Shown here in pieces: positions 4,711 through 31,342 of a DNA stretch of 40,265 bases. A program made the translations under genes and the position numbers. The DNA is from Promethearchaeota archaeon. GTDB lineage: Archaea; Asgardarchaeota; Lokiarchaeia; Sigyniarchaeales; SOKP01. The stretch is from the NCBI GenBank assembly GCA_016839765.1, contig JAEOTP010000078.1, forward strand, positions 1 through 40,265, read 5' to 3'. The notes beneath the pieces are model-generated. The model was given only the letters and a program-made list of their open reading frames with translations, searched no databases and was not told where the DNA came from. How positions within the stretch are numbered: position 1 is the stretch's first letter; each line of letters begins with the position of its first letter.

Positions 4711-7065
4711 TTGCAAAGAAAATTGAAATTTTATCTACTATTTGGAGTTCTATTTTTATCGATATCGCCATCTATAAATCAAATTTTCAATATGTATTTT
4801 GATCAAGATTATAACCTTAAAGCTTTACCTAATCCAACCTCTACTTTATCACTTTCAAATGGTATTGGGGATAATATTACGGGGAGTTATGATGGAGATC
4901 TTTCTCTTGTTTATTTTGAATTTAATTCAAATTGGAGTTCGTGGTGGTATCAGAACAGAAGCACAAATATTGTGTCTCATAATATGTCTGTGAACAATAA
5001 AGAATTTGTTTTAAACAGATTAGAAATTTACGCAGACAACATTATAAACGAATCTGGTTCTGGAGATTATGTAATAGCTAATAATATCACTAATCAAATT
5101 AGCCCTGCTCCTTCAATTTTATTTTCTCAACAATTTACTGCTCATGATTTATATTCAATTGATGTTATTTGGCTATACTTGAATTACAGTTTGATTATGC
5201 TTCCAGAACTTGAACATTATTTAATGGTCTTACATATTTTTAATGAGACATTTGAGGAAGAAATTGATGTTATGTGGGAATGGGAATCAAGAAAAGTAGT
5301 TGATGAGTGGAAACCATTTTTTCCCCGGGCTAATATTTTTGAACCTGGTAAAAAGTATAATCTTGTTTTTCATCTATTGGATGAAAAGTCTGAGGATGGA
5401 GGTGGAATACCTTTTAATTTTTGGAAAGCAGAACAATATAAGAACTCTAGTTACAACAAAGGATTAACGCTCAGATTCGATGGTGCGTACTGGTTAGCAT
5501 TCATTAATGATAACACTGCGGATTTATTATGTTTTTTCAGTTATAAAAAGCTTATCAACCCTGCTTTAGTAGATCTTAAGTATATAATTAATAATGAAAC
5601 AATAATCCCTATCTATCAACGGAGTTCTTTTGGATTTTGGGGTTATGAGGCGTATTTACCATATACTCTCGATGCTCAAATAAACGCCCCCATAAATATC
5701 ACTGTTATAACTAACCAAACCATTCCAACTCTCGAAGTATATATAGAGATGTATTACATTCACCTTGTTAATGCAACAGGAACCTATAGTGTTGATAATA
5801 ATTTCAATGAATGGACAATAGAGTATTATTACGAAGAAATATCATTTGGATGGCCCCCTCCGATATTTTTATTCGAAAAGGATTGGGATTTTGTTCAATT
5901 TTTAGATCCAAATGGAATACCAATGAACGAAATCTATTTTGGACCAATGGATTTGTATAACAAATCGTATTATGGAGTGACAGACTTTTTCGGTCCTCCT
6001 TTAGAGCGTGGAACATATACCGGAATATTCCATTCGCCAAATTATTGTAATAAAATTAATTTTAAAGCACAATCCGGGACACAGTTTGTAGATAAAAGTT
6101 CTTTAGAGATTGGGCAAACAATTAAGCTTGAAGCAGAAATATATAACACTTTTAATCAACCTATGTCTGGAGGAGAAGGGCAAATCATATTAAAATCTCC
6201 TTCTGGGTCGATAATTCTTAACGATACTGGATTAAGTACAGTAAATGGGATGCTCAGTAGCTCTGAAATTAATTTGGATTCTACTTATTTAGAAGGATTT
6301 TATGAAGCAGAAATTTTTTGGACGGATGGAAAAGAAATTGCATATTATTCAGCTCAGATTGAAGTAAGAACGCCTTTAAATTTAATCTTAGTCATAGGGG
6401 TCTCTATAGCCTCTGCACTTGCAGCTGTTTCAATTACTCTGGTCTTGAGGAGACAAATCCGGATGAGAAATTGGGAAAAATCATTAAAAAATCTATTTGT
6501 GCTTACTAAAGACGGATTAAGCTTATTTGAATATTCTTTTGGAATTGAGATTCAAGACCCTGCTCTTATATCTGGAATGATAGCTGCTCTTACACAGTTT
6601 GTGCGTGAAGCTACAGGCAGTAAAAAATCTCTCCGCACTGTTGATCAAGAAGATAAAAAAGTAATATTACAACATGGGGATTATACAACTATTGCTTTAT
6701 TGGCAGAAAAGGACTTACCTATAATTCATAAACGTATTAGAAAGTTTTCAGGTGAATTTGAGACAGCGTATCACAAAAATATTAAAACTTTTGATGGTGA
6801 AATTTCTGCATTCAAGAATGCGGATGTGATTGTAAACAAATACTTTCCCATTGATGTAGAAGAACAGATTATTCGAGGTGTGAGAGAAAAATTAATAGAA
6901 TTCCGGGAAAGACTGGACGTTCTTACAGATCCAAGGCATATTATATCTTTGATGCGTGAAATCACCGAATTTATCTCTAGATATCGCGCCATTGTAAATG
7001 AGAATTATTTAGACTATTATAACGAGATAATCATTGGTGCAGAGCAAAAGATTTCTAATGCATAA
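4711..7065 (+). CDS. Transmembrane receptor-like protein with cytosolic longin-like domain
   Basis: 784 residues. The TTG start at 4711 is supported by an AAGAGG ribosome-binding site about 9 bases upstream and a signal peptide directly after it. Residues 1 to about 25 are the signal peptide. Residues 30-550 form a large beta-rich ectodomain with many N-X-S/T sites; its end (about 450-550) looks like an Ig-like fold. A single membrane helix spans about 556-580, followed by R-R-Q-I-R. The cytosolic part at about 592-715 looks like a longin/roadblock-type domain: an F-V-L-T-K-D-G hairpin, then a D-P-A-L-I-S-G-M helix, then further strands and a helix. It is similar to the N-terminus of the GTPase at 23130. 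A helical tail (715-784) ends the protein. Longin-like domains often bind small GTPases, so a receptor passing an outside signal to a GTPase is plausible; this is inference. A long T-tract follows. Confidence 0.75.
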   Translation: MQRKLKFYLLFGVLFLSISPSINQIFNMYFDQDYNLKALPNPTSTLSLSNGIGDNITGSYDGDLSLVYFEFNSNWSSWWYQNRSTNIVSHNMSVNNKEFVLNRLEIYADNIINESGSGDYVIANNITNQISPAPSILFSQQFTAHDLYSIDVIWLYLNYSLIMLPELEHYLMVLHIFNETFEEEIDVMWEWESRKVVDEWKPFFPRANIFEPGKKYNLVFHLLDEKSEDGGGIPFNFWKAEQYKNSSYNKGLTLRFDGAYWLAFINDNTADLLCFFSYKKLINPALVDLKYIINNETIIPIYQRSSFGFWGYEAYLPYTLDAQINAPINITVITNQTIPTLEVYIEMYYIHLVNATGTYSVDNNFNEWTIEYYYEEISFGWPPPIFLFEKDWDFVQFLDPNGIPMNEIYFGPMDLYNKSYYGVTDFFGPPLERGTYTGIFHSPNYCNKINFKAQSGTQFVDKSSLEIGQTIKLEAEIYNTFNQPMSGGEGQIILKSPSGSIILNDTGLSTVNGMLSSSEINLDSTYLEGFYEAEIFWTDGKEIAYYSAQIEVRTPLNLILVIGVSIASALAAVSITLVLRRQIRMRNWEKSLKNLFVLTKDGLSLFEYSFGIEIQDPALISGMIAALTQFVREATGSKKSLRTVDQEDKKVILQHGDYTTIALLAEKDLPIIHKRIRKFSGEFETAYHKNIKTFDGEISAFKNADVIVNKYFPIDVEEQIIRGVREKLIEFRERLDVLTDPRHIISLMREITEFISRYRAIVNENYLDYYNEIIIGAEQKISNA

Positions 7066-7070
7066 ATTAG

Positions 7071-7095
7071 ATTTTTTTTTAAATTTTTTTTTTTA
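7071..7095 (+). terminator. T-rich terminator after the longin receptor
   Basis: Two oligo-T runs separated by AAA directly follow the stop codon at 7065. T-tracts of this kind end transcription in archaea without needing a hairpin. Confidence 0.5.
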
Positions 7096-7208
7096 GAAGT
7101 TATTGTTATTTTTGTAATTTAAGATAAGACTTAAATAACTTTTAATAACCTTTTTTACGAATTTAAGACTTCTCTATATAGTTTTTAAATATTATTGAAG
7201 AGAAGATA

Positions 7209-8399
7209 ATGCAAAATAAGAAATATCGTGTTTTTCCCATCCTTTTTCTTGCGTTTATGCGAGTGGCTTTAGGGGTAGCAATCAGTTTAGCAATTCCACT
7301 TTATTATCTTGATATAGGATTAGAACCAGGAACTATTGGCGTTATTACATCAGGGACCGCTATGTCTTACTTAGTTTCTCCCTTAATCTTTAAAAATCTT
7401 TATAAAAAAATCGGAGTTAAATTAACTATTATTCTATCTTGTACTGGATTTCTAATAATCCAGATAATTTTACAATTTACATTAGAACCATTAGCTGTAT
7501 ATATCCTTTTAATACTTGATGGAATTGTTTTGGGGTCCTTTTGGCCTGTTCTAATGACGGCAGTTTCGAGAATATCAAGATTAGAAGAATATAATCAAAA
7601 TAATTTATTAAAAGATAGATTAATGAAACGATATAGTCTATCTTGGAATTTTGGAGGAATATTTAGTTTTGTACTGGGCACTATTGTACTATTTTTCATC
7701 GAAGATATACTTCTGATGTTTATTTTTTCATTATTATTTGCTACAAGTGGCTTAATTTTCGCGTTTTTAATTCAAGAACCTGAAAATAACCTTGATAAAG
7801 AAATAATTGTACCTATTGATGAAAGAGTGAAAAGCATTCCTAATCGTGAGGATATTTCTTTCCCAATTTTCTTACCTTTAGTGATGATCTGTGTGTATGG
7901 TTTTTTAATTGGAGGATTAGGTCTTGCATATCCCATAAAATCAGAACTATTAAATTTTCCATTATTTACTAATTATCTATTCTATTTCTTTAGAATGAGC
8001 ACTCAAACAGCTACACTTTCCAAAACCATGGATCTAAATGTTAAAAAAATAAAAAAAATGATTTTAGTCTCAAATATAATTGTAATTATATCGTTTATAT
8101 TAATGGGATTAAATTACAATATCGTAATTTTTGGAATTCTTTTTTGCTTATTTGGTAGTTTTAATTCATTTTACTATGCACTTGCATTTAAATTAACCAT
8201 TTTCAAAAATATTGCCAAAAATACATCCAAATATAGTGTTTATTTTGAAATAATGATTGGAATCGGCTTCTTTTTAGCCCCAATCCTCACTGGTTTAATT
8301 GCAGAGTTAAATGCAGATCTAACATTTTTCATTTTAGCAATCCTTTCAGTCTTTACTTTTATTGTTTATTTAATATTTTACAGGAAGATAAAGGATTAA
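7209..8399 (+). CDS. MFS transporter
   Basis: 396 residues with about 12 hydrophobic helices and a charged central loop (about 195-215), the layout of a Major Facilitator Superfamily permease. The first half has the short helix-to-helix turns typical of MFS domains (for example Y-L-D-I-G-L-E-P-G-T-I-G after helix 1). It resembles proton-coupled efflux or sugar-phosphate-type members, but the substrate cannot be told. Start ATG at 7209 has a GAGAAG sequence just upstream and a TTTTTAAATATT box about 24 bases upstream. It is followed 103 bases later by a second MFS gene with its own TATA box, so the two may be separate transcripts. Confidence 0.8.
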   Translation: MQNKKYRVFPILFLAFMRVALGVAISLAIPLYYLDIGLEPGTIGVITSGTAMSYLVSPLIFKNLYKKIGVKLTIILSCTGFLIIQIILQFTLEPLAVYILLILDGIVLGSFWPVLMTAVSRISRLEEYNQNNLLKDRLMKRYSLSWNFGGIFSFVLGTIVLFFIEDILLMFIFSLLFATSGLIFAFLIQEPENNLDKEIIVPIDERVKSIPNREDISFPIFLPLVMICVYGFLIGGLGLAYPIKSELLNFPLFTNYLFYFFRMSTQTATLSKTMDLNVKKIKKMILVSNIIVIISFILMGLNYNIVIFGILFCLFGSFNSFYYALAFKLTIFKNIAKNTSKYSVYFEIMIGIGFFLAPILTGLIAELNADLTFFILAILSVFTFIVYLIFYRKIKD

Positions 8400-19421: not shown

Positions 19422-20045
19422 ATGAATAAAGTGCATACTTCAGCTGTTGTAATAATTCCTCCCAAAGATAAGTGGGAACCAATACAAGAAATCCGAAAAC
19501 AATATGACCGTCAGTTTAATAGATGGATGCCCCATATTACATTAATATATCCCTTTCGGCCAGAATCAGAATATAATACTATAGAACAAGAATTTTCAGC
19601 AGTATGTAAGGAAATAAAACCATTTGAAATAAAATTGAAATCATTTAAGTATTTTAATTATGGTCACCAAAATTTTACAATATGGCTCGCACCACATCCA
19701 CAAGATTCGATTATTAACCTTCAAAAGGAAATCCAAATGATTGTACTAGACTGTAATGATGTGAATTTATATAAAAGGGGTTTTACCCCTCATTTAAGCA
19801 TTGGACAAATTAAAGGAAAAAAAATATTACTTGAGATTATTCAGCAACTTGAAACTAAGTGGTATGAAATAAAATTTACATTGAATAAAATCTATTTTAT
19901 TGCAAGAGAAAAATGTAAAACATCACTATTTCAAGTGAAAAAAGTCATAAACTTTAAAAATTCAGAAGAATCATTAAAATTTTTATATTTGAACTACATA
20001 TTTAATATAATCAATAAAATTAATCTCAAAAAGAGTGAACTATGA
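19422..20045 (+). CDS. 2H phosphoesterase (2'-5' RNA ligase/LigT-like)
   Basis: 207 residues. The two catalytic H-x-T/S motifs of the 2H superfamily are present: P-H-I-T at 37-40 (H38) and P-H-L-S at 123-126 (H124), about 85 residues apart as usual. Members hydrolyse 2',3'-cyclic phosphates or related RNA or ADP-ribose bonds. The subfamily is closer to stand-alone YjcG/LigT forms; the exact substrate is unknown. The last 40 residues are a lysine-rich tail beyond the core fold. The stop codon overlaps the start of the Rab-like GTPase gene (ATGA at 20042-20045), so the two are translationally coupled. That is a surprising partner for an RNA-type phosphoesterase. Confidence 0.8.
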   Translation: MNKVHTSAVVIIPPKDKWEPIQEIRKQYDRQFNRWMPHITLIYPFRPESEYNTIEQEFSAVCKEIKPFEIKLKSFKYFNYGHQNFTIWLAPHPQDSIINLQKEIQMIVLDCNDVNLYKRGFTPHLSIGQIKGKKILLEIIQQLETKWYEIKFTLNKIYFIAREKCKTSLFQVKKVINFKNSEESLKFLYLNYIFNIINKINLKKSEL

Positions 20046-20599
20046 GTAATAGTGATATTGTGTTTCAAGGCAGAACCGAGAGTATTTATAAGGTAATTGT
20101 AATCGGAGATCCTGCTGTAGGAAAGACAAGCCTTCTTACTAAATTTGCCACTAATAAATTCGAGGAGAAGTATCTCCCCACGGTTGGTGTAAATATTTTA
20201 AAAGAAATCATAAATTTGGAGGAGCAAAACGTCGTCAACTTAATGTTTTGGGATGTAGCTGGTCAACCACAATTCTATATGCTCCATCGTCCCTACTTTA
20301 ACGGTGCAGATGCTATGTTATTAGTCTTTGATATTACAAGGTCAAGTACTTTTTCCAATATTAATAACTGGTATTCTACTGCAGTGAAATACGGACTTAG
20401 TGGAATTCCTCGTCTTTTAATTGGTAATAAAATAGATTTGAAAGATGATCGAAAAATTATTATGCCAATGGCAGAGCATCTCTCTGAAAAATTAAATGCT
20501 CCGTACTTCGAAACTTCTGCATTAACAGGAGATAATGTAAAGCTTATTTTTCATAAAATAGCAGAATTGGTGTATAAATTCAAGGAAGAATTAAAATAG
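20042..20599 (+). CDS. Rab/Ras-like small GTPase
   Basis: 185 residues, one complete G domain: G1 G-D-P-A-V-G-K-T-S (22-30), G2 threonine T47 in Y-L-P-T-V-G, G3 W-D-V-A-G-Q (70-75, with the catalytic glutamine Q75), G4 N-K-I-D (129-132), G5 T-S-A-L (158-161). The order and spacing follow Rab/Ras rather than Arf. There is no C-terminal cysteine for prenylation and no N-terminal glycine for myristoylation, so any membrane contact must be through a partner. Eukaryotic relatives control vesicle traffic; in Asgard archaea the role is unknown. It is coupled to the 2H phosphoesterase upstream by a 4-base overlap. The next 415 bases (20600-21014) are AT-rich and hold no visible gene. Confidence 0.92.
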   Translation: MSNSDIVFQGRTESIYKVIVIGDPAVGKTSLLTKFATNKFEEKYLPTVGVNILKEIINLEEQNVVNLMFWDVAGQPQFYMLHRPYFNGADAMLLVFDITRSSTFSNINNWYSTAVKYGLSGIPRLLIGNKIDLKDDRKIIMPMAEHLSEKLNAPYFETSALTGDNVKLIFHKIAELVYKFKEELK

Positions 20600-22305: not shown

Positions 22306-22959
22306 TTAAACTCCTTTCTTATCCTTAACCATTAATTTGTTTATCCAAAAAGTTATTTTTTCATTTAGATGGTTTTCAATGGTCTCAGATTTAGGATTTT
22401 CTTGATCGATTTGGACAGAAAGCGATTTTACTGTGTTTAAACGATTGACGACTTTCAAAATTTCGTTGCAAATTCGATGTCCTCCTGTAAAATCAAATAT
22501 ATCTTCCTTTATTTTTTCTAATGTGGATTTTACAACTTGAGGGTCATTTAAAGTTTTCAACTCCTGCTTTAAATTATTCAAGTTTTCAATTATTGTCTCT
22601 TTTTTGTCAGTAGCAGTTTCATCTCTATTTATTTCATTACTTGCTAATTCAGGTTGAGATGAGATTGTCCGCAAATTGGTGATTAATGATTTAATTAGAT
22701 CAAGTTCATTTTCTAAGTTATTTTGATTTTCAATAATGTTATTTAGTTGAGGGGATAAACTCTTAATATCCAGAGTAACTTTATGTAATTCATTCACTTT
22801 ATCAGTTAGCATATTCACTTTAAGATTCGTTTGTCCCATTTTAGTAATAATATCTAATCCGAATTTTTCAAGGATTGATGAGAATGATTTCATTTTTTCA
22901 TTTAATTCTTTAATGGAATTAATAATATTTTGCTCATCAAAATCATTAGCATTTGACAT
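22306..22959 (-). CDS. Coiled-coil protein divergent from the longin-Arf GTPase
   Basis: 217 residues, nearly all helical, with heptad-like patterns at about 10-50, 52-105 and 115-150 and a more compact C-terminal segment (F-D-F-T-G-G-H-R-I-C, 154-163). There is no signal peptide, membrane helix or known domain. It shares a 170-base divergent promoter region with the longin-GTPase gene at 23130. Coiled coils next to small GTPases are often effectors or tethers, so a partnership is a reasonable guess, but only the gene position supports it. Its stop is 25 bases from the stop of the convergent radical SAM gene. Confidence 0.65.
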   Translation of the reverse strand: MSNANDFDEQNIINSIKELNEKMKSFSSILEKFGLDIITKMGQTNLKVNMLTDKVNELHKVTLDIKSLSPQLNNIIENQNNLENELDLIKSLITNLRTISSQPELASNEINRDETATDKKETIIENLNNLKQELKTLNDPQVVKSTLEKIKEDIFDFTGGHRICNEILKVVNRLNTVKSLSVQIDQENPKSETIENHLNEKITFWINKLMVKDKKGV

Positions 22960-23129: not shown

Positions 23130-24026
23130 GTGGTTAAAATAATACAATATATAAATATTCTAAGCAGAGATGGAAAATCATTCCTATTTAGGAATTATGG
23201 TAGTTCTGATGTAGATAGAGATCTCTTAGCGGGTTTCTTAAGTGCTTTTTCAGGGTTTATAAAAGAAATAAGTCAAAGTGAGATTAGATCAACTGCAACT
23301 GACGAATTTAAATATTATTATACGATTATTGATGAGATAATTATTGTAGTATGTGCGGATTTAGATGAGGATGATGCTAATGTTAATTCAAAAATTACAA
23401 CAATAAGAAGAAAATTTATAGAAAAATATGGTACTATCCTTTCTAATGGTAGTTGGTCTGGAAATCGCGCTATTTTTACAGAATTTGAAAGAGAAATAGA
23501 TAACACCATCCTTGGAGCGATCAAAGTTTCAATTATAGGAATAGGTGGAGTTGGTAAAACAACACTTTTACACCTTATATGTGGGAAGGACATTGACTTA
23601 GAATATGTTCCAACTATAAATGTAGATATTACTACTTATGATGGATTTGATGATATGCATCGCTCTATCGTATTATGGGATTTTGCAGGACAAGATAATT
23701 TTAGATCATTATGGAAAAGCCTTCTTGACAGTACAGATGTGGCTCTTCTTGTCTTAGATTCTAGTATTGAAAATGTTAAATATAGTAAAGAAATAATGAG
23801 AGATATTTTGGATAAATATTATAAAGATACTTTAGTTATAGGTATAGCAAATAAGCAAGACTTGCCTAATCGGTTAACTCCTAAATTTTGTGAGAGAATA
23901 CTTTCGGAAGCTGATAGACACCCTTCAATTAAGGTTCATGGGATGATTGCTATCAATCCAGTTTATAGAGAAAAAATACATGCTATTTTAAGGGAAGCCA
24001 TAAATAAAATATATCCCTTAAGCTAA
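23130..24026 (+). CDS. Longin-like domain fused to Arf-like small GTPase
   Basis: 298 residues, GTG start at 23130, directly followed by the first strand of the domain. Residues 1-125 form a longin-like fold: a hairpin with S-R-D-G-K-S-F-L, then D-R-D-L-L-A-G-F-L-S-A-F helix, then strands and a C-terminal helix. It aligns with the cytosolic part of the receptor at 4711. Residues 130-298 are a GTPase: G1 G-I-G-G-V-G-K-T (137-144), T162, G3 W-D-F-A-G-Q (183-188), G4 N-K-Q-D-L-P (241-246). N-K-Q-D is the Arf/Sar form. G5 is weak (I-A-I-N-P around 273-277). The arrangement recalls the GTPase plus longin pairs of the eukaryotic Rag/Ragulator and SRX/SR-beta systems, but on one chain. A dimer sensing a membrane partner through longin contacts is plausible inference. 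Confidence 0.85.
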   Translation: MVKIIQYINILSRDGKSFLFRNYGSSDVDRDLLAGFLSAFSGFIKEISQSEIRSTATDEFKYYYTIIDEIIIVVCADLDEDDANVNSKITTIRRKFIEKYGTILSNGSWSGNRAIFTEFEREIDNTILGAIKVSIIGIGGVGKTTLLHLICGKDIDLEYVPTINVDITTYDGFDDMHRSIVLWDFAGQDNFRSLWKSLLDSTDVALLVLDSSIENVKYSKEIMRDILDKYYKDTLVIGIANKQDLPNRLTPKFCERILSEADRHPSIKVHGMIAINPVYREKIHAILREAINKIYPLS

Positions 24027-24147: not shown

Positions 24148-25914
24148 ATGAAATTGCTTAAATTTGAAATTGAAGACATTGAGATTGAAACCCATAAAGA
24201 TGTTAGTATTTTAAAATTACCAGAATTAAGTGAAGAAGAAAAAAATTTAATCGATCCCCTTGTTGCTCCAACTTCTGGATTGAGAATTCAAATTTTAGAT
24301 ATAATAGAAGAAAATGGCAAAAAAAAGTATATTTTAACCAAACATAAGTTATTTTTGTTTCTAAGAGTCTTTAAAGCAATTAGTCAAATATTTAAAGAAA
24401 TGAAAAAAGCTCAAAATTTAAAAGTTTTAATTGTTACGGATAATCGCCCAAGTAGAAATATTTTATTAGATTATTCTTCTCAAATATTTGCATACGATGG
24501 TTATGAGATTTTTTATCAAAAAGATGATCCTAAAGAATCGAGATTATCATCACCTTATGGTGCTGCCTCAGTCGCATTATTAGAAGATATTAATTTAATA
24601 ATAGTTTTGACTGCATCTCACAATGATTTCTCTTGGAATGGAATTAAATTTTACATTGATTATCCAATTCCAATGTCAGGTGATTTGTTCAAAGAAATTT
24701 CAAAGAAGGCATTAAAAGTTAATGAAATTTGTCTTAAATCCAAATATAGCGCCATACAAGTTGATGCTGAACAATTAAATAATGATTATACCATTAAACT
24801 CTTATCAAGAATTTTAGAAATAAAGAGTTTAAAAGGAAAGAATATTGTCATTTGGCCATATCTGGGTAAAGCCAGAGGGATTGTTAACCTATTTAAACAA
24901 CTTGGAGCAAATGTGACGTTAATAGAAGAAGAGATTAATCCACCGAATCCCTTAAAAGAAATTCGCGAATTAAAACTACAACAAATAATGAACCAAGTCA
25001 ATTCAAATTTAGCATTGTTATTAGATGCTGATAGAGATAGAATCGCATTGTATGCTAAACAAAATGGAAAATTCTTCTTTTATATCCCAAATGAGATTTA
25101 TTCAGCAATGCATAATATATTAGCAAAAGTATATAATAAAAAGATTATAAATGTTCGAACTATTCCAAGTGATTTAAGAGGAGATGACACTAGTTTTTTA
25201 AATATCTTAACTGGTGTTGGATATAAACATCTCGGAATTATTTTGTATTTTCTTACTGGAATAGAAGTAGATCAATCAAAAATTGATACCGCAATTCTTT
25301 ATTTCGAAGATGAGAATAAAAACTTAATTAAAATTAATAATCCAACTCCTCTTAGGCAACAAATCGTTCATTTGATTAAAACTCAAAATATAGAAAAAGA
25401 ATCTTTTTTAATGGTATATTGGGAAGAGAGTGGAGGTCATACAATTAACATTTTAAATGTTTTTAAAATCAAAGAGACAGGTGAATATAAATTTACTACT
25501 GATTTTGCTATTATAGCAGATAAATACCCTGTTCCTGCTTTGGTGTTAATAACAGAACTCATATGTAGAGGTTATATCATTTCAGAAGCAATAGATTGGG
25601 CAATAAAAGGAATTAACCGGACAATTCATGCTATTGATGAAGAAAAAATCAAACTTATGAATAATTTTAAGAGGAATGATGGAAAAATAATTACAATTGA
25701 AGGAAAAGATTATAGTGTACAAGCATTATCTGATAATAACCAACAAATTGATATATACCAGCTCAAAAGTATCGATTCTACTCTCTATTTCAGACCTAGC
25801 GGTACAGGTCCAGATGTACGATTCTATATTTTTGCAAAAAAAGAAACTCACTTAGATGAAATTAAAAGAGTTCAAAATTTTATAAAAAAGAATTATATTT
25901 CGACAATTATTTAA
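24148..25914 (+). CDS. Phosphohexomutase (phosphoglucomutase/phosphomannomutase-like)
   Basis: 588 residues, longer than the usual 450-480. Alpha-D-phosphohexomutase motifs in order: P-T-S-G-L-R (41-46, the N-terminal G-T-S-G-x-R loop), T-A-S-H-N (155-159, phosphoserine S157), metal loop D-A-D-R-D-R (293-298), sugar loop E-E-S-G-G-H (about 425-430), and phosphate loop R-P-S-G-T-G-P (549-555). It converts hexose 1- and 6-phosphates for sugar nucleotide synthesis, probably feeding N-glycans of surface proteins such as those at 4711, 27326 and 29506. Oddities are E-E-S-G-G-H with an extra glycine and R-P-S-G-T-G-P where glutamate is usual, plus about 100 extra residues spread over the domains. 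Some divergence of substrate is possible. Confidence 0.8.
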   Translation: MKLLKFEIEDIEIETHKDVSILKLPELSEEEKNLIDPLVAPTSGLRIQILDIIEENGKKKYILTKHKLFLFLRVFKAISQIFKEMKKAQNLKVLIVTDNRPSRNILLDYSSQIFAYDGYEIFYQKDDPKESRLSSPYGAASVALLEDINLIIVLTASHNDFSWNGIKFYIDYPIPMSGDLFKEISKKALKVNEICLKSKYSAIQVDAEQLNNDYTIKLLSRILEIKSLKGKNIVIWPYLGKARGIVNLFKQLGANVTLIEEEINPPNPLKEIRELKLQQIMNQVNSNLALLLDADRDRIALYAKQNGKFFFYIPNEIYSAMHNILAKVYNKKIINVRTIPSDLRGDDTSFLNILTGVGYKHLGIILYFLTGIEVDQSKIDTAILYFEDENKNLIKINNPTPLRQQIVHLIKTQNIEKESFLMVYWEESGGHTINILNVFKIKETGEYKFTTDFAIIADKYPVPALVLITELICRGYIISEAIDWAIKGINRTIHAIDEEKIKLMNNFKRNDGKIITIEGKDYSVQALSDNNQQIDIYQLKSIDSTLYFRPSGTGPDVRFYIFAKKETHLDEIKRVQNFIKKNYISTII

Positions 25915-27325: not shown

Positions 27326-29305
27326 TTATCTTTTTTTATTTTTTACTTTATTAGGTACAATTACTATTCCAAAAAATACTACACATATCAAAAATAAAAT
27401 TAGATTATAACCAGGGATTGCTTGTTCCTTTTTGATTATAATTACTTCTGCAAATCCAATTTTTCCGGTTTTGTCCATCACATAAAATTCCAGCTTCACC
27501 AAACCACTTGGTAATGGATTCCAAGCTGCTTGATTAATAGTACCATTATTAGTAAATATATAATTATGTAAACCTCCATCAAGAGTATACCACATCTCAT
27601 CAGTATGTTTTTCTTTTACCGAAATAATAAAGCTTGGAGCTATATTTTTAAAAACAGATTCATTAGAAGGTGATAAAATAGTAATTTCAGGAACTTCATT
27701 GTCTACAATGGGGAGAAAATCTTGCACCAAGGGAGAACTACAAATATTATGAGGAGTATCACCAATACCATCTCCATTTGCATCAATCCCAGTATAATTA
27801 TCCCAATAGTTTCCGATTTCAGAATTATTCCATCTATTATTTAAACCATTATCACCTATATGCACACCATTATTCCTGAAGAAATTAAGAAAGATCGTAT
27901 TATTATTACTTCCACCCCCCAAATATAACCCAGTATCAATATTTCCAGAAATTACATTTTTAGAAATGTTGCTAAAGCTGTTTACCAGAAAAGCACCAAA
28001 TACATTGTTTTCAATATTATTATCTAAAATTGTATTATTTTCGCAGAAAAACCGGATATCAAGCCCTCTATACCCATTATTTTTAATATTATTTCTAATT
28101 ATAAGGTTGTTATGACCACCAATAGCTATTCCATCCATATAGTTTTCATTTACATCATTTTCTACAATAATTGAGTTAGTAAGACCACCCTCAATACCAT
28201 CATGATTTTCATTGATAATATTTCCAATGATTGAAATTTTATCACAATTAGAGAGCTCTATACCCCACCAATTATTACTAGATAAATTGTTATGGCTAAT
28301 CTCAATGAAACTACAATTAGTTAACGATATTGATACTGAGCCGTCCGATAAATCTAAATTTGATATAATAGAATTATTACAATTTATTAAATAAATTTGA
28401 CCTGCATTTGAGAGATCATCATTATCCAAACCTGTTGAATTTAAATAGAAGTATAGATGCCCACCGTTCACTAAATTTGTAGTATCAATAGTATTAGAAA
28501 GAAAATATGAGTAATGTGAGTAAAAACCACATCCTTCCATCATATTTCCATTAAATTTATTATTATAACATGGACCATATAAATAAATTCCTAGTTCTTC
28601 ATTATTGATTAAAATATTATCCAAGATTGTATTGTTATTACAAAAGGCAAGAAAGTAAATTCCATAACGATTGTAGTTAATAAAATTCCCCTTAATAGTG
28701 TTATTGTCCAATTCTCCTGGTGGACCACCAGGGCCACCACGACAATAAATTCCGTAATCTTCATTATTATTTACAATATTATTGGATACTGTATTATTCA
28801 TACAATAACATTGTTCAATTTCTTCTTGTGTTGGGTGTGTATTATCTGTCCATCCATCTAAATAAATCCCGTTTTCATTATTAGAGCAATTATTATTCAA
28901 TAGAGTGCCATTACACGATCTTGTCAATCGAATACCGTATGTACAATTAAATACAGTACAATTTTCAATTCTAAAAACCACATTTTTTGAATTTCCTATT
29001 GAGATTCCTGAACCTGTACCATCTCCATCTATAATTAAATCTTGGATGACATAAGGATCAGCAAATGTCCCAGATCCAGTACAAATACCAGCATCCACAG
29101 CATCTGACCAATTATCAGCAATCAGTATTTTTCCCGAAATTTGAGAGCCTCTGGGGGTAACTTTATATAAACTTTCATTATTTAATGAATCAATCTTGTT
29201 TATTTTATTAAACGAGGGAACAATAGAGAGAGAGATAAGAAATAAAATTAAACAAACTATTATAAATCCCGTTTTAGGTTTGAATAATCTATTTTGATGG
29301 ATCAT
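27326..29305 (-). CDS. Surface beta-helix protein (NosD/PbH1 repeats) with C-terminal anchor
   Basis: 659 residues. A signal segment lies at about 13-32. Residues about 70-510 are parallel beta-helix repeats, rich in N-N and N-x-I, of the NosD/carbohydrate-binding CASH type: repeated patterns such as I-x-x-N-x-I-x-x-N-x-x-G-I. Next comes N-Y-W-D-N-Y-T-G-I-D-A-N-G-D-G-I-G-D, the calcium-binding-like end seen in many archaeal NosD proteins. An Ig-like domain covers about 530-625. The C-terminus has I-P-G-Y-N (630-634), a membrane helix and a K-x-K-N-K-K-R tail, the layout of an archaeal C-terminal sorting or anchoring signal. It probably forms part of the glycosylated cell surface and binds polysaccharide. 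It is monocistronic. Confidence 0.8.
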   Translation of the reverse strand: MIHQNRLFKPKTGFIIVCLILFLISLSIVPSFNKINKIDSLNNESLYKVTPRGSQISGKILIADNWSDAVDAGICTGSGTFADPYVIQDLIIDGDGTGSGISIGNSKNVVFRIENCTVFNCTYGIRLTRSCNGTLLNNNCSNNENGIYLDGWTDNTHPTQEEIEQCYCMNNTVSNNIVNNNEDYGIYCRGGPGGPPGELDNNTIKGNFINYNRYGIYFLAFCNNNTILDNILINNEELGIYLYGPCYNNKFNGNMMEGCGFYSHYSYFLSNTIDTTNLVNGGHLYFYLNSTGLDNDDLSNAGQIYLINCNNSIISNLDLSDGSVSISLTNCSFIEISHNNLSSNNWWGIELSNCDKISIIGNIINENHDGIEGGLTNSIIVENDVNENYMDGIAIGGHNNLIIRNNIKNNGYRGLDIRFFCENNTILDNNIENNVFGAFLVNSFSNISKNVISGNIDTGLYLGGGSNNNTIFLNFFRNNGVHIGDNGLNNRWNNSEIGNYWDNYTGIDANGDGIGDTPHNICSSPLVQDFLPIVDNEVPEITILSPSNESVFKNIAPSFIISVKEKHTDEMWYTLDGGLHNYIFTNNGTINQAAWNPLPSGLVKLEFYVMDKTGKIGFAEVIIIKKEQAIPGYNLILFLICVVFFGIVIVPNKVKNKKR

Positions 29306-29505
29306 GCTTTTCTCTATTTAAATTGAAATTTCATGCATTTTGTCTATGATTATTATATTTCTTTTTTTACCCATATAAATATTTCTAGCATGATTAACAA
29401 ATGATTTAGATTTTAATATGTGAATCGATGAGATTTACAAGGCTAATAATTAAAAGTTTACTTGAAATATTAGATCTTAAGAAATAGATAATCAGATTTA
29501 AAGAA

Positions 29506-30795
29506 TTGAAATTCAAGAATTTTATCTTTTATGGTTTAATAATAGGATTAATTTTTAGTTCCTTAGCCCAATACATATCATTTGCATCTCTTAGTTTTCA
29601 AATTGAAAGAAATAATTTTAGTATGAAATCCAATGGATTAAGTCAATCATGGAGTATTCCTTTAGACTATATTGGACAAGATATTGCATTTGATTCAAAT
29701 AATTGTATTTATGTTGTTGGATATGATTATTCATCTAATAATTCGATAAAATTAATGAAGTATAACAGCTCGGGAGTTCAATTATGGAATAAAGAATTAG
29801 AAGGATTTTATAAACATAATCCAATAATGAAAATTGATTTAAACAACAATTTGTATTTAGCAGGTTATTATAAGAATCAAACAACAGACTGGAATGCAGC
29901 AATTTTTAAATTTAATTCCTCAGGTGATTTGCAATGGCAAAAGATATATGAAGATGATAATGTTAGTTTTATTCATGATATCGTTTTAGATTCAGAAGAT
30001 CATATATATATTTATGGCTCCTTGGAATCGGATAATTTATTTATAATAAAATATAATAAATCTGGCAGTCAATTATGGTTTCACGAATTTGGAGAAATTG
30101 GTATACTTAATTATGGATATAGTATTTTGATTGATTCAGATAACGATATCATCATCTCAGGGATTTCTTCTAATTATAGTTCGATATACTGGTTAAGATC
30201 TTATAATATATCAAGGGAATTGCAGTGGTCTATTACTCGTGATTCTGAATCTTTTCCCTTACTTGGATTAGATTCATCAGATAATGTGATTTCAATCGCA
30301 AATTATGATCGGCAATTGGATTTGGTTAAATATGATATCTCTGGGAATTCTATTTGGAATTATACACTTGAATCGCGATTTTTAGACTTATTACCGCACG
30401 GTGGACCGCCAGTTCCAATGAAATATCAATTTGACTTAACATTGGACTCATCCGATAACATCTATATTGGTTGGGAGATAGAAATACCGAATGACCTGTA
30501 TAATGCTGATATATTGATAATCAAAATCAACAATTCTGGAAATTTTGAATCGTATTTAACATGGGGGGATTCTAATAATGATTATTTAATAAAAATTGGT
30601 ACTGATTCAAATGAGAATATTTATTTATTGTCTGTCCATTATTTAACTAAAAATCCAGTAAGTAATGGTAAATCTCTTTATAGAACAAATCTTTGGAACT
30701 TTTATTTAATTCTTTTTGGAATTTGTTGCTTTGTATCTCTAATTTCATTATATTTTATCATAAGATCCAGAATTAGAAAGAGTTCAAATACATAG
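29506..30795 (+). CDS. Surface beta-propeller protein (SBBP-like repeats)
   Basis: 429 residues. TTG start at 29506, chosen because a signal peptide (about 6-28) follows directly and the next ATG is 40 codons later. Seven repeats of about 45-50 residues each contain D-S-x-x-x-I-Y-x-x-G, then K-Y-N-x-S-G-x-x-L-W, as in SBBP/beta-propeller proteins. This suggests a seven-bladed propeller facing outside. A membrane helix lies near the C-terminus (about 398-420), followed by a basic tail. Many N-x-S/T sites suggest N-glycosylation. It is divergent from the NosD-like gene across 200 AT-rich bases. The ligand is unknown. Confidence 0.75.
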   Translation: MKFKNFIFYGLIIGLIFSSLAQYISFASLSFQIERNNFSMKSNGLSQSWSIPLDYIGQDIAFDSNNCIYVVGYDYSSNNSIKLMKYNSSGVQLWNKELEGFYKHNPIMKIDLNNNLYLAGYYKNQTTDWNAAIFKFNSSGDLQWQKIYEDDNVSFIHDIVLDSEDHIYIYGSLESDNLFIIKYNKSGSQLWFHEFGEIGILNYGYSILIDSDNDIIISGISSNYSSIYWLRSYNISRELQWSITRDSESFPLLGLDSSDNVISIANYDRQLDLVKYDISGNSIWNYTLESRFLDLLPHGGPPVPMKYQFDLTLDSSDNIYIGWEIEIPNDLYNADILIIKINNSGNFESYLTWGDSNNDYLIKIGTDSNENIYLLSVHYLTKNPVSNGKSLYRTNLWNFYLILFGICCFVSLISLYFIIRSRIRKSSNT

Positions 30796-30826
30796 CATTG
30801 TTTTATCGACTGTTAAAATAAAGATA

Positions 30827-31342
30827 TTACCAGAAACCATACGTACCTAATTGTATTGAAAAGACGCAAAATTGAAAAGATGCGAAATTTGCTAGCGTGG
30901 AAATCAATGCAGTTTTTTTTAACGATAAAAATTTCCTGATTGACTTTCTATAAAAAAGTTTTCGAAATTCTAAACAATATAAGAACCATTCAATTAATAC
31001 CGTTATGATGATAATTATAATCGCATAGAACAGATAGAATTCAAAAAAGAATGCTAAAACGAAGCAAGAAATTATATAGGTGGGAGGAAATATAACTAGA
31101 TTAACTAATGCTACCGAAGAAAATAACTCTTTTTTAACTAAATCGCCCGATCTAAGAAAAATATAAACAACACCATATTCAATAATTATGTTAATAATAA
31201 CTGTAATGATTAAATACGTAATTATTAAAATTGGCTGTTCATAGAAGGGTGTGGGAACTAGTACAGAATATACCTTTGGAATAATAATGAAGAATAGTGT
31301 TAAAAAGACGATAATAGTGGAAAGATAATTTTTATATTTCAC
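30827..31342 (-). CDS. Multi-pass membrane protein of unknown function
   Basis: 171 residues with about five hydrophobic helices (near 9-28, 37-64, 73-91, 93-120 and a weaker C-terminal one) and a basic loop at 125-145 (F-R-K-L-F-Y-R-K-S). No family is recognised. Its stop lies 31 bases from the stop of the convergent propeller gene. It starts with ATG at 31342 and has no close upstream partner. Confidence 0.5.
   Translation of the reverse strand: MKYKNYLSTIIVFLTLFFIIIPKVYSVLVPTPFYEQPILIITYLIITVIINIIIEYGVVYIFLRSGDLVKKELFSSVALVNLVIFPPTYIISCFVLAFFFEFYLFYAIIIIIITVLIEWFLYCLEFRKLFYRKSIRKFLSLKKTALISTLANFASFQFCVFSIQLGTYGFW

Follow-up and report, generated by a model that had tools for sequence, protein, structure and literature searches.

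The fusion gene and its surroundings

The window, which is the whole stretch of 40,265 nucleotides that was analysed, derives from a Promethearchaeota archaeon (contig JAEOTP010000078.1 of assembly GCA_016839765.1) whose genome assembly comprises 3.32 Mb and is 96 % complete. Among its genes is one that encodes a longin domain and a small GTPase domain on a single chain (Table 1). This arrangement had been proposed in the original prediction, and it is borne out by the sequence motifs, the fold matches and the orthologues of the protein.

Table 1. Positions of the fusion gene, its domains and motifs, its neighbours and the candidate partner in the window
Feature	Positions	Strand	Remarks
Transmembrane protein, candidate docking partner	4711..7065	+	Hydropathy and profile searches
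Longin-type cytosolic tail of the 4711 protein	6487..6840	+	Profile search, hhalign
Coiled-coil-like protein, 217 aa, divergently transcribed	22306..22959	-	Neighbour of the fusion conserved within the order
Longin-GTPase fusion gene	23130..24026	+	298 aa, GTG start, stop included
N-terminal longin domain, residues 1-128	23130..23513	+	AF2, VIA, profile matches, Pfam longin families in members
Small GTPase domain, residues 129-298	23514..24023	+	Pfam and PDB matches
G1 P-loop GIGGVGKT, residues 137-144, Ras/Rab style	23538..23561	+	
G3/Switch II WDFAGQ, residues 183-188, putative catalytic Gln188	23676..23693	+	
G4 NKQD, residues 241-244, Arf style	23850..23861	+	
Phosphoglucomutase-like protein	24148..25914	+	Downstream neighbour of the fusion conserved within the order

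In a scan of close relatives, matches to the fusion came from Lokiarchaeota only (the named near relatives are Lokiarchaeota/Lokiarchaeia MAGs), and the orthologues found there are of equal length and share 65-95 % identity. Elsewhere in the Asgard phylum, full-length orthologues at about 30-56 % identity occur in further orders and classes. The dN/dS ratio is about 0.05-0.20 for the whole gene and 0.06-0.30 for each half separately, where computable. The gene is real and subject to purifying selection, which acts on both of its halves, while a chance ORF is ruled out by the orthologues together with the dN/dS values. A small antisense ORF (23318-23593, minus strand), which lies inside this conserved coding gene, is probably spurious. 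The encoded chain has no transmembrane (TM) segment, no C-terminal cysteine and no glycine at position 2, where a valine is found instead; as far as can be judged from the sequence, no membrane anchor can be recognised in the fusion protein itself.

The neighbours compared included genes for PUA, LigT, Rab-like GTPase, coiled-coil, phosphoglucomutase-like and acyl-CoA dehydrogenase proteins, the last of which lies near the fusion in near relatives. No dedicated operon partner of the fusion was found among them, and these neighbours are kept only within the genus, family or order. Elsewhere in the window (19422-20599, plus strand), the gene encoding a LigT-like 2'-5' RNA ligase shares a four-base overlap with the start of a Rab/Ras-type GTPase gene, the best solved relative of which is a Thorarchaeota Rab.

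The N-terminal longin domain

When modelled alone with AF2, using an alignment of 21 near relatives, the longin half reached a mean pLDDT of 80.5 and a pTM of 0.78. The full-length model of the fusion is of low confidence (pLDDT 65.8) and is too uncertain for the relative position of the two halves to be read from it. In the longin half, DSSP assigns strands to residues 5-12, 17-22, 53-56, 60-67 and 70-77, and helices to residues 30-40, 82-105 and 113-116/119-128. The full-length and the domain models give the same order, b-b-a-b-b-b-a-a, with two C-terminal helices and no N-terminal helix, and this modelled succession is the longin order of elements. A roadblock domain, unlike a longin, begins with a helix (PMC10933270), and a roadblock identity of the N-terminal half is ruled out by the element order and the missing N-terminal helix.

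The VIA search with the full-length model listed only GTPases, and the longin half was therefore searched alone. In VIA-align, it was matched to VAMP7 (Z 15.2, rmsd 2.2, 118 aligned), Sec22b (Z 14.8), zeta-COP (14.6), Fuzzy (13.6), AP-1 sigma (Z 13.4) and SRX (Z 12.2), where rows within 1 unit of Z count as ties, and Foldseek returned AP sigma, COPI, VAMP7, Sec22b and Ragulator chains. Compared with solved sequences, a profile built from 36 diverse members identified AP-3 and AP-2 sigma as the best matches (E about 2e-5), followed by AP-4 sigma, VAMP7, COPI delta and MON1. Residues 1-128 of the fusion alone give a weak Pfam match (Longin, E 0.042); among the 36 members, Fuz_longin_1 is matched by 19 (best E 1.7e-8), Clat_adaptor_s by 13 (best 1.9e-4) and Longin by 12 (best 4.5e-6). 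Since the structure, profile and Pfam matches all lead to longins, membership of the longin superfamily is firm, and residues 1-128 are recognised, in part through the predicted structure, as a true longin domain. The N-terminus had been expected to fold in this way, and the structure prediction (VIA Z 12-15 to longin structures) agrees with that expectation; only the boundary has shifted, the domain ending at about residue 128 rather than at residue 125. The signals for a particular sub-family differ, with the PDB profile pointing to sigma chains, Pfam to Fuz_longin_1, and the structures giving ties or slightly favouring the SNARE longins.

The GTPase domain

Residues 129-298 match the Pfam families Roc (60.8 bits), Arf (58.8 bits) and Ras (52.4 bits), all above the curated cut-offs, and VIA relates this half to Ras-superfamily GTPases with Z 15-16. 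The N-K-Q-D and W-D-F-A-G-Q motifs that had been named beforehand are both present (Table 1), G2 is represented by P161-T-I163, and the G5 position is occupied by A274. To judge by these motifs, the C-terminal half is intact as a small GTPase, none of the five nucleotide motifs being missing. The G motifs are nearly invariant across diverse members of the family: G1 is mostly GxGGVGKT, G2 is PTI, NKQD occurs in all 36 members and G5 is mostly VAID or VAIN, while LW follows Switch II in 31 of the 36. The residue that precedes GQ in WDFAGQ is A in 32 members, P in two and G in two.

Known Arf proteins carry the P-loop GLDxAGKT and a G3 motif with G before GQ (WDxGGQ); according to PDB alignments and general knowledge, LW after Switch II and NKQD are Arf-like features and GxGGVGKT is a Ras/Rab-like one. 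The motif set of the fusion is a Ras/Rab-Arf hybrid. The WDxGGQ signature of Arf is absent from the fusion, which has WDFAGQ, and so is the Arf-type N-terminal amphipathic, often myristoylated helix, the GTPase being preceded by the longin domain. The best 60 PDB matches listed, for both the fusion protein and the family profile, are Arf/Arl proteins, bar a few 'GTP-binding protein' entries, and the GTPase half is rightly said to resemble Arf at the level of sequence.

A GTPase tree of 60 rows and 140 columns was built from reference rows copied from PDB alignments and from the GTPases of the source genome, with MglA chosen as the root. It groups the fusion GTPases with Rab/Ras-like proteins (support 97/96), away from Arf, Sar1, SR-beta, Rag and MglA. 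The AU test did not reject trees in which the fusion GTPases were held with Arf and Sar1 (p 0.196), and neither their placement with SR-beta (p 0.249) nor an own clade together with the paralogue L107 (p 0.4) was rejected. Constraining them with Rab/Ras gave p 0.033, a value that was left unused, as the constrained set omitted two L113 GTPases of the same genome that sit at the base of the Rab/Ras group. A second alignment setting resulted in an equal tree likelihood and therefore provides no independent check. Given an alignment of 140 columns, a placement of the family nearer Rab, with Arf and SR-beta not rejected, is the most that the tree allows. The designation 'Arf-type' holds with respect to the closest solved structures, which are Arf/Arl, and to NKQD, but not with respect to the P-loop and Switch II, which are Ras/Rab-like, and the phylogeny, in which the free tree leans to Rab/Ras, neither confirms nor rejects it.

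Distribution in Asgard archaea

Matches with E <= 1e-40 to a 292-position longin-GTPase profile were observed in 154 of 214 Asgard genomes and in 45 of 60 genera, a tally that is per se no proof of a full-length fusion in every genome counted. Among the matches listed, those with E <= 1e-90 that span about positions 2-290 of the 292 come from at least 12 families. The longin-GTPase fusion turns out to be an old family that is present in most Asgard genomes. Within the 214 genomes, the families designated f22 and f23 yielded no match to the longin-GTPase profile with E <= 1e-40; their best matches to the full-length model cover the longin part or the GTPase part alone, mostly on separate short ORFs. 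The nearest f23 longins (L171-L176) belong to proteins of about 209-241 aa with a short C-terminal part instead of a GTPase, and this part, judged by eye, looks like a winged helix.

The source genome encodes paralogous fusions of 666 aa (C23, L107:733-2733) and 885 aa (C95:99-2756), and a 504-aa protein (C53, L113:4766-6280) is probably a further one. In all three, the longin and GTPase domains are accompanied by an additional C-terminal region, which in the 666- and 504-aa proteins has no Pfam match. A second, diverged longin-GTPase copy (L099:6038-6901) is encoded near the orthologue in genome G007; its P-loop reads GLGGTGKE, with the GKT altered, and it is possibly a non-binding paralogue.

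Longin-type tails of membrane proteins

The protein encoded at 4711 comprises 784 residues. Its N-terminus is hydrophobic and its ectodomain large, and it has one strong TM segment near residues 555-579 and a cytosolic tail. This tail matches the longin profile of the fusion with E 3.4e-8 in a profile search of the same genome, and with a probability of 96.2 and E 2.3e-9 in hhalign. On the evidence of these comparisons, the tail appears to be longin-type and homologous to the longin domain of the fusion, and the earlier guess that a related domain would be found here proved correct. Used as a query, the tail in turn retrieves the longin halves of longin-GTPases from other genomes (G081:C1:870583, G080:C1:907222 and G080:C1:1070681).

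In most of the Asgard genomes examined, the longin-type tail recurs, and the ORFs that carry it vary greatly in length; the genome G078 alone has 79 matches. Numerous Asgard membrane proteins with diverse outer parts share such a cytosolic tail. In the source genome, about 30 longin-type domains were detected (E < 0.01, own-genome search). Ten of them, including that of the 4711 protein, are on proteins with TM segments predicted by a simple hydropathy window, eight are stand-alone proteins of 136-165 aa, and others are proteins of 250-290 aa with additional regions, while in four a GTPase domain follows in the chain. The nine further TM longin proteins are encoded on C83 (three), C3, C4, C67 (near 37, 90 and 128 kb) and C95 (near 36 kb); in the C67 protein near 128 kb, the longin is preceded by about ten TM segments.

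In near relatives, the fusion and the 4711 gene reside on shared contigs but several kb apart, with other genes between them. Tails are present even where a genome has no fusion, and on these grounds nothing points to an exclusive pairing of the two proteins. In the Asgard genomes, fusion and longin-tailed membrane proteins were not seen to co-occur strictly, since families f22 and f23 have the tail without the fusion; tail and fusion are therefore not strictly coupled.

Relation to known systems

Five longin domains fused to Arf-like GTPases of Lokiarchaeum are reported by Dey et al. 2016 (PMC4917890), who cite a re-examination from 2016, and GTPase-longin fusions were reported by Tran et al. 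2024 in 'Ca. Prometheoarchaeum syntrophicum' MK-D1, where 26 of 74 small-GTPase sequences are combined with roadblock or longin domains and the second largest GTPase class is closest to Rag and also near Arf (PMC10933270). In view of these reports, the longin-GTPase architecture was already known. The published fusions are alike by architecture, with a longin and an Arf- or Rag/Arf-like GTPase on one chain; however, they were presented as architectures in single genomes, whereas here one full-length family is followed throughout the phylum, together with its motif signature and homologous membrane tails. No description of the family at the scale of the phylum, of its motif signature or of membrane proteins with longin tails was found in accessible papers, and none of these is claimed to be unreported.

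In the eukaryotic SRP receptor, SRX (the N-terminal longin of SR-alpha; fold match Z 12.2) and SR-beta likewise bring together a longin and an Arf-related GTPase. These are two chains, of which SR-beta is membrane-anchored and devoid of WDFAGQ, whereas the fusion is one soluble chain that has only the longin and a Ras-like GTPase, with neither an SRP-type NG GTPase nor an apparent hydrophobic segment of TM length. The sigma and zeta chains of AP/COPI, which function with Arf1, are comparable in that sigma is the best longin-profile match among solved structures and Arf the closest solved GTPase, but they are separate eukaryotic chains inside large coats and their similarity to the fusion remains remote. 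The MON1-CCZ1, Fuzzy-Inturned and HPS1-HPS4 platforms for Rab-type GTPases resemble the fusion via Fuz_longin_1 (19 of the 36 members), although, unlike the fusion, they form heterodimers with several longins, and the GTPases on which they act are separate proteins. Finally, in the bacterial MglA-MglB system a GTPase is controlled by a longin/roadblock-type dimer, but MglB is a roadblock protein with an N-terminal helix and a separate chain, and MglA occupies a long branch in the GTPase tree.

Possible function of the fusion

The best model for the function of the fusion is that longin-longin pairing would dock its GTPase on longin-tailed membrane proteins, a proposal that we put forward tentatively and with somewhat less than even confidence. 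It builds on the fold, the G motifs, the joint conservation of the two halves and the occurrence of homologous tails in the same genome. Longin and roadblock domains form dimeric platforms that hold small GTPases, as exemplified by TRAPP-Rab1 and MglB-MglA (PMC10933270), and SRX-SR-beta (PDB 5ck3) is a further precedent for the binding of a GTPase by a longin platform. The fusion lacks an anchor of its own, and longin pairing is the simplest reading. The protein would then be a soluble Ras-superfamily switch carrying its own longin platform, and its longin half would pair with another longin, whether a membrane tail (e.g. that encoded at 4711-7065), a longin that stands alone or another copy of the fusion. 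Like other longin/roadblock dimers, the platform may place the GTPase at the inner membrane face, with a surface offered to the switch regions; the state of the receptor or the choice of partner would control GTP loading or hydrolysis, a putative GAP or GEF effect, and the GTP-bound switch would recruit an effector. Against this model, the 4711 gene is located 16 kb from the fusion and shares no operon with it, and synteny of the two genes is confined to close relatives. That this longin domain is shared by the inner tails of numerous surface-receptor-like proteins suggests a route for bringing the switch to the membrane.

The strongest rival to docking is a self-contained homodimeric switch, in which the longin halves would pair with each other and act as a GAP/GEF platform in cis or in trans, much as if MglB and MglA were joined in a single chain, with no need for membrane proteins. 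We regard this as a serious possibility, if on balance an unlikely one. It would accord with the 1:1 ratio of regulator to switch that the fusion maintains across most Asgard genomes, with the lack of a dedicated neighbour at the level of the phylum, and with the models of Tran et al. (PMC10933270), in which such architectures of MK-D1 form homodimers whose GTPases are variously positioned, but it leaves unexplained the spread of the same longin family over membrane tails and stand-alone proteins.

It is considerably less probable that the fusion represents a single-chain precursor, or a relative, of an Arf-family pair of eukaryotes (SRX/SR-beta-like or AP-sigma/Arf-like) whose halves later separated. 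Among solved sequences, the longin profile best matches AP sigma chains (E 2e-5), the GTPase profile best matches Arf/Arl and the 'GTP-binding protein' 8oun, and the tree rejects neither Arf with Sar1 (p 0.196) nor SR-beta (p 0.249). However, Pfam favours MON1/FUZ/HPS1-type and SNARE longins over sigma chains, structure does not discriminate between them, 34 of the 36 members lack GGQ, the hallmark of Arf, in the best tree the GTPase lies nearer Rab/Ras (97/96), and two families yielded no fusion. The 60-row GTPase tree contains no link between the fusion and a eukaryotic pair of the kind conveyed by the term 'ancestral-like', which the original prediction had offered as one possibility. Just as improbable is a cytosolic metabolic or ligand sensor, whose longin would bind either a small molecule or some partner other than a longin, to be read out by the GTPase with no docking by longin pairing: the phosphoglucomutase-like and coiled-coil neighbours at order level, the acyl-CoA dehydrogenase in near relatives and the related f23 longins with a winged-helix-like C-terminal part (by eye) in place of a GTPase would suit it, but the neighbours are not kept beyond the order and a ligand pocket is without support.

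In eukaryotes, membrane identity is governed by longin platforms together with small GTPases, and Asgard archaea are the nearest known archaeal relatives of eukaryotes. A phylum-conserved single-chain longin-GTPase is a compact object for asking whether longins regulated GTPases before eukaryotes, and the longin tails on membrane proteins provide a concrete list of partners for it. If docking by longin pairing is true, a receptor-to-GTPase pathway would exist in the archaeal relatives of eukaryotes; if there is no such pairing, the fusion still offers a 1:1 regulator-switch pair for biochemistry. A broader and doubtful extension of the docking model is that longins constitute an Asgard plug-and-socket code, in which fusions and stand-alone longins would plug into receptor tails and the recruitment of GTPases would be pre-eukaryotic. 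Were this the case, receptor-controlled GTPase recruitment would predate the longin complexes of the eukaryotic SRP receptor, adaptor coats and Rab GEFs.

Adjacent longin and GTPase genes

Longins and GTPases are also encoded side by side in the source genome. A 154-aa stand-alone longin lies directly upstream of a 180-aa small GTPase on the same strand (G000:C25, about 6138-7322; L158:1639-2823), and the pair may be a split version of the fusion. At a second site (G000:C95, about 28743-30925; L104:1244-3426), a 473-aa Rag-like GTPase adjoins a 214-aa longin-type protein, and the N-terminus of this GTPase shows a weak match to Folliculin (PF11704, E 0.0014).
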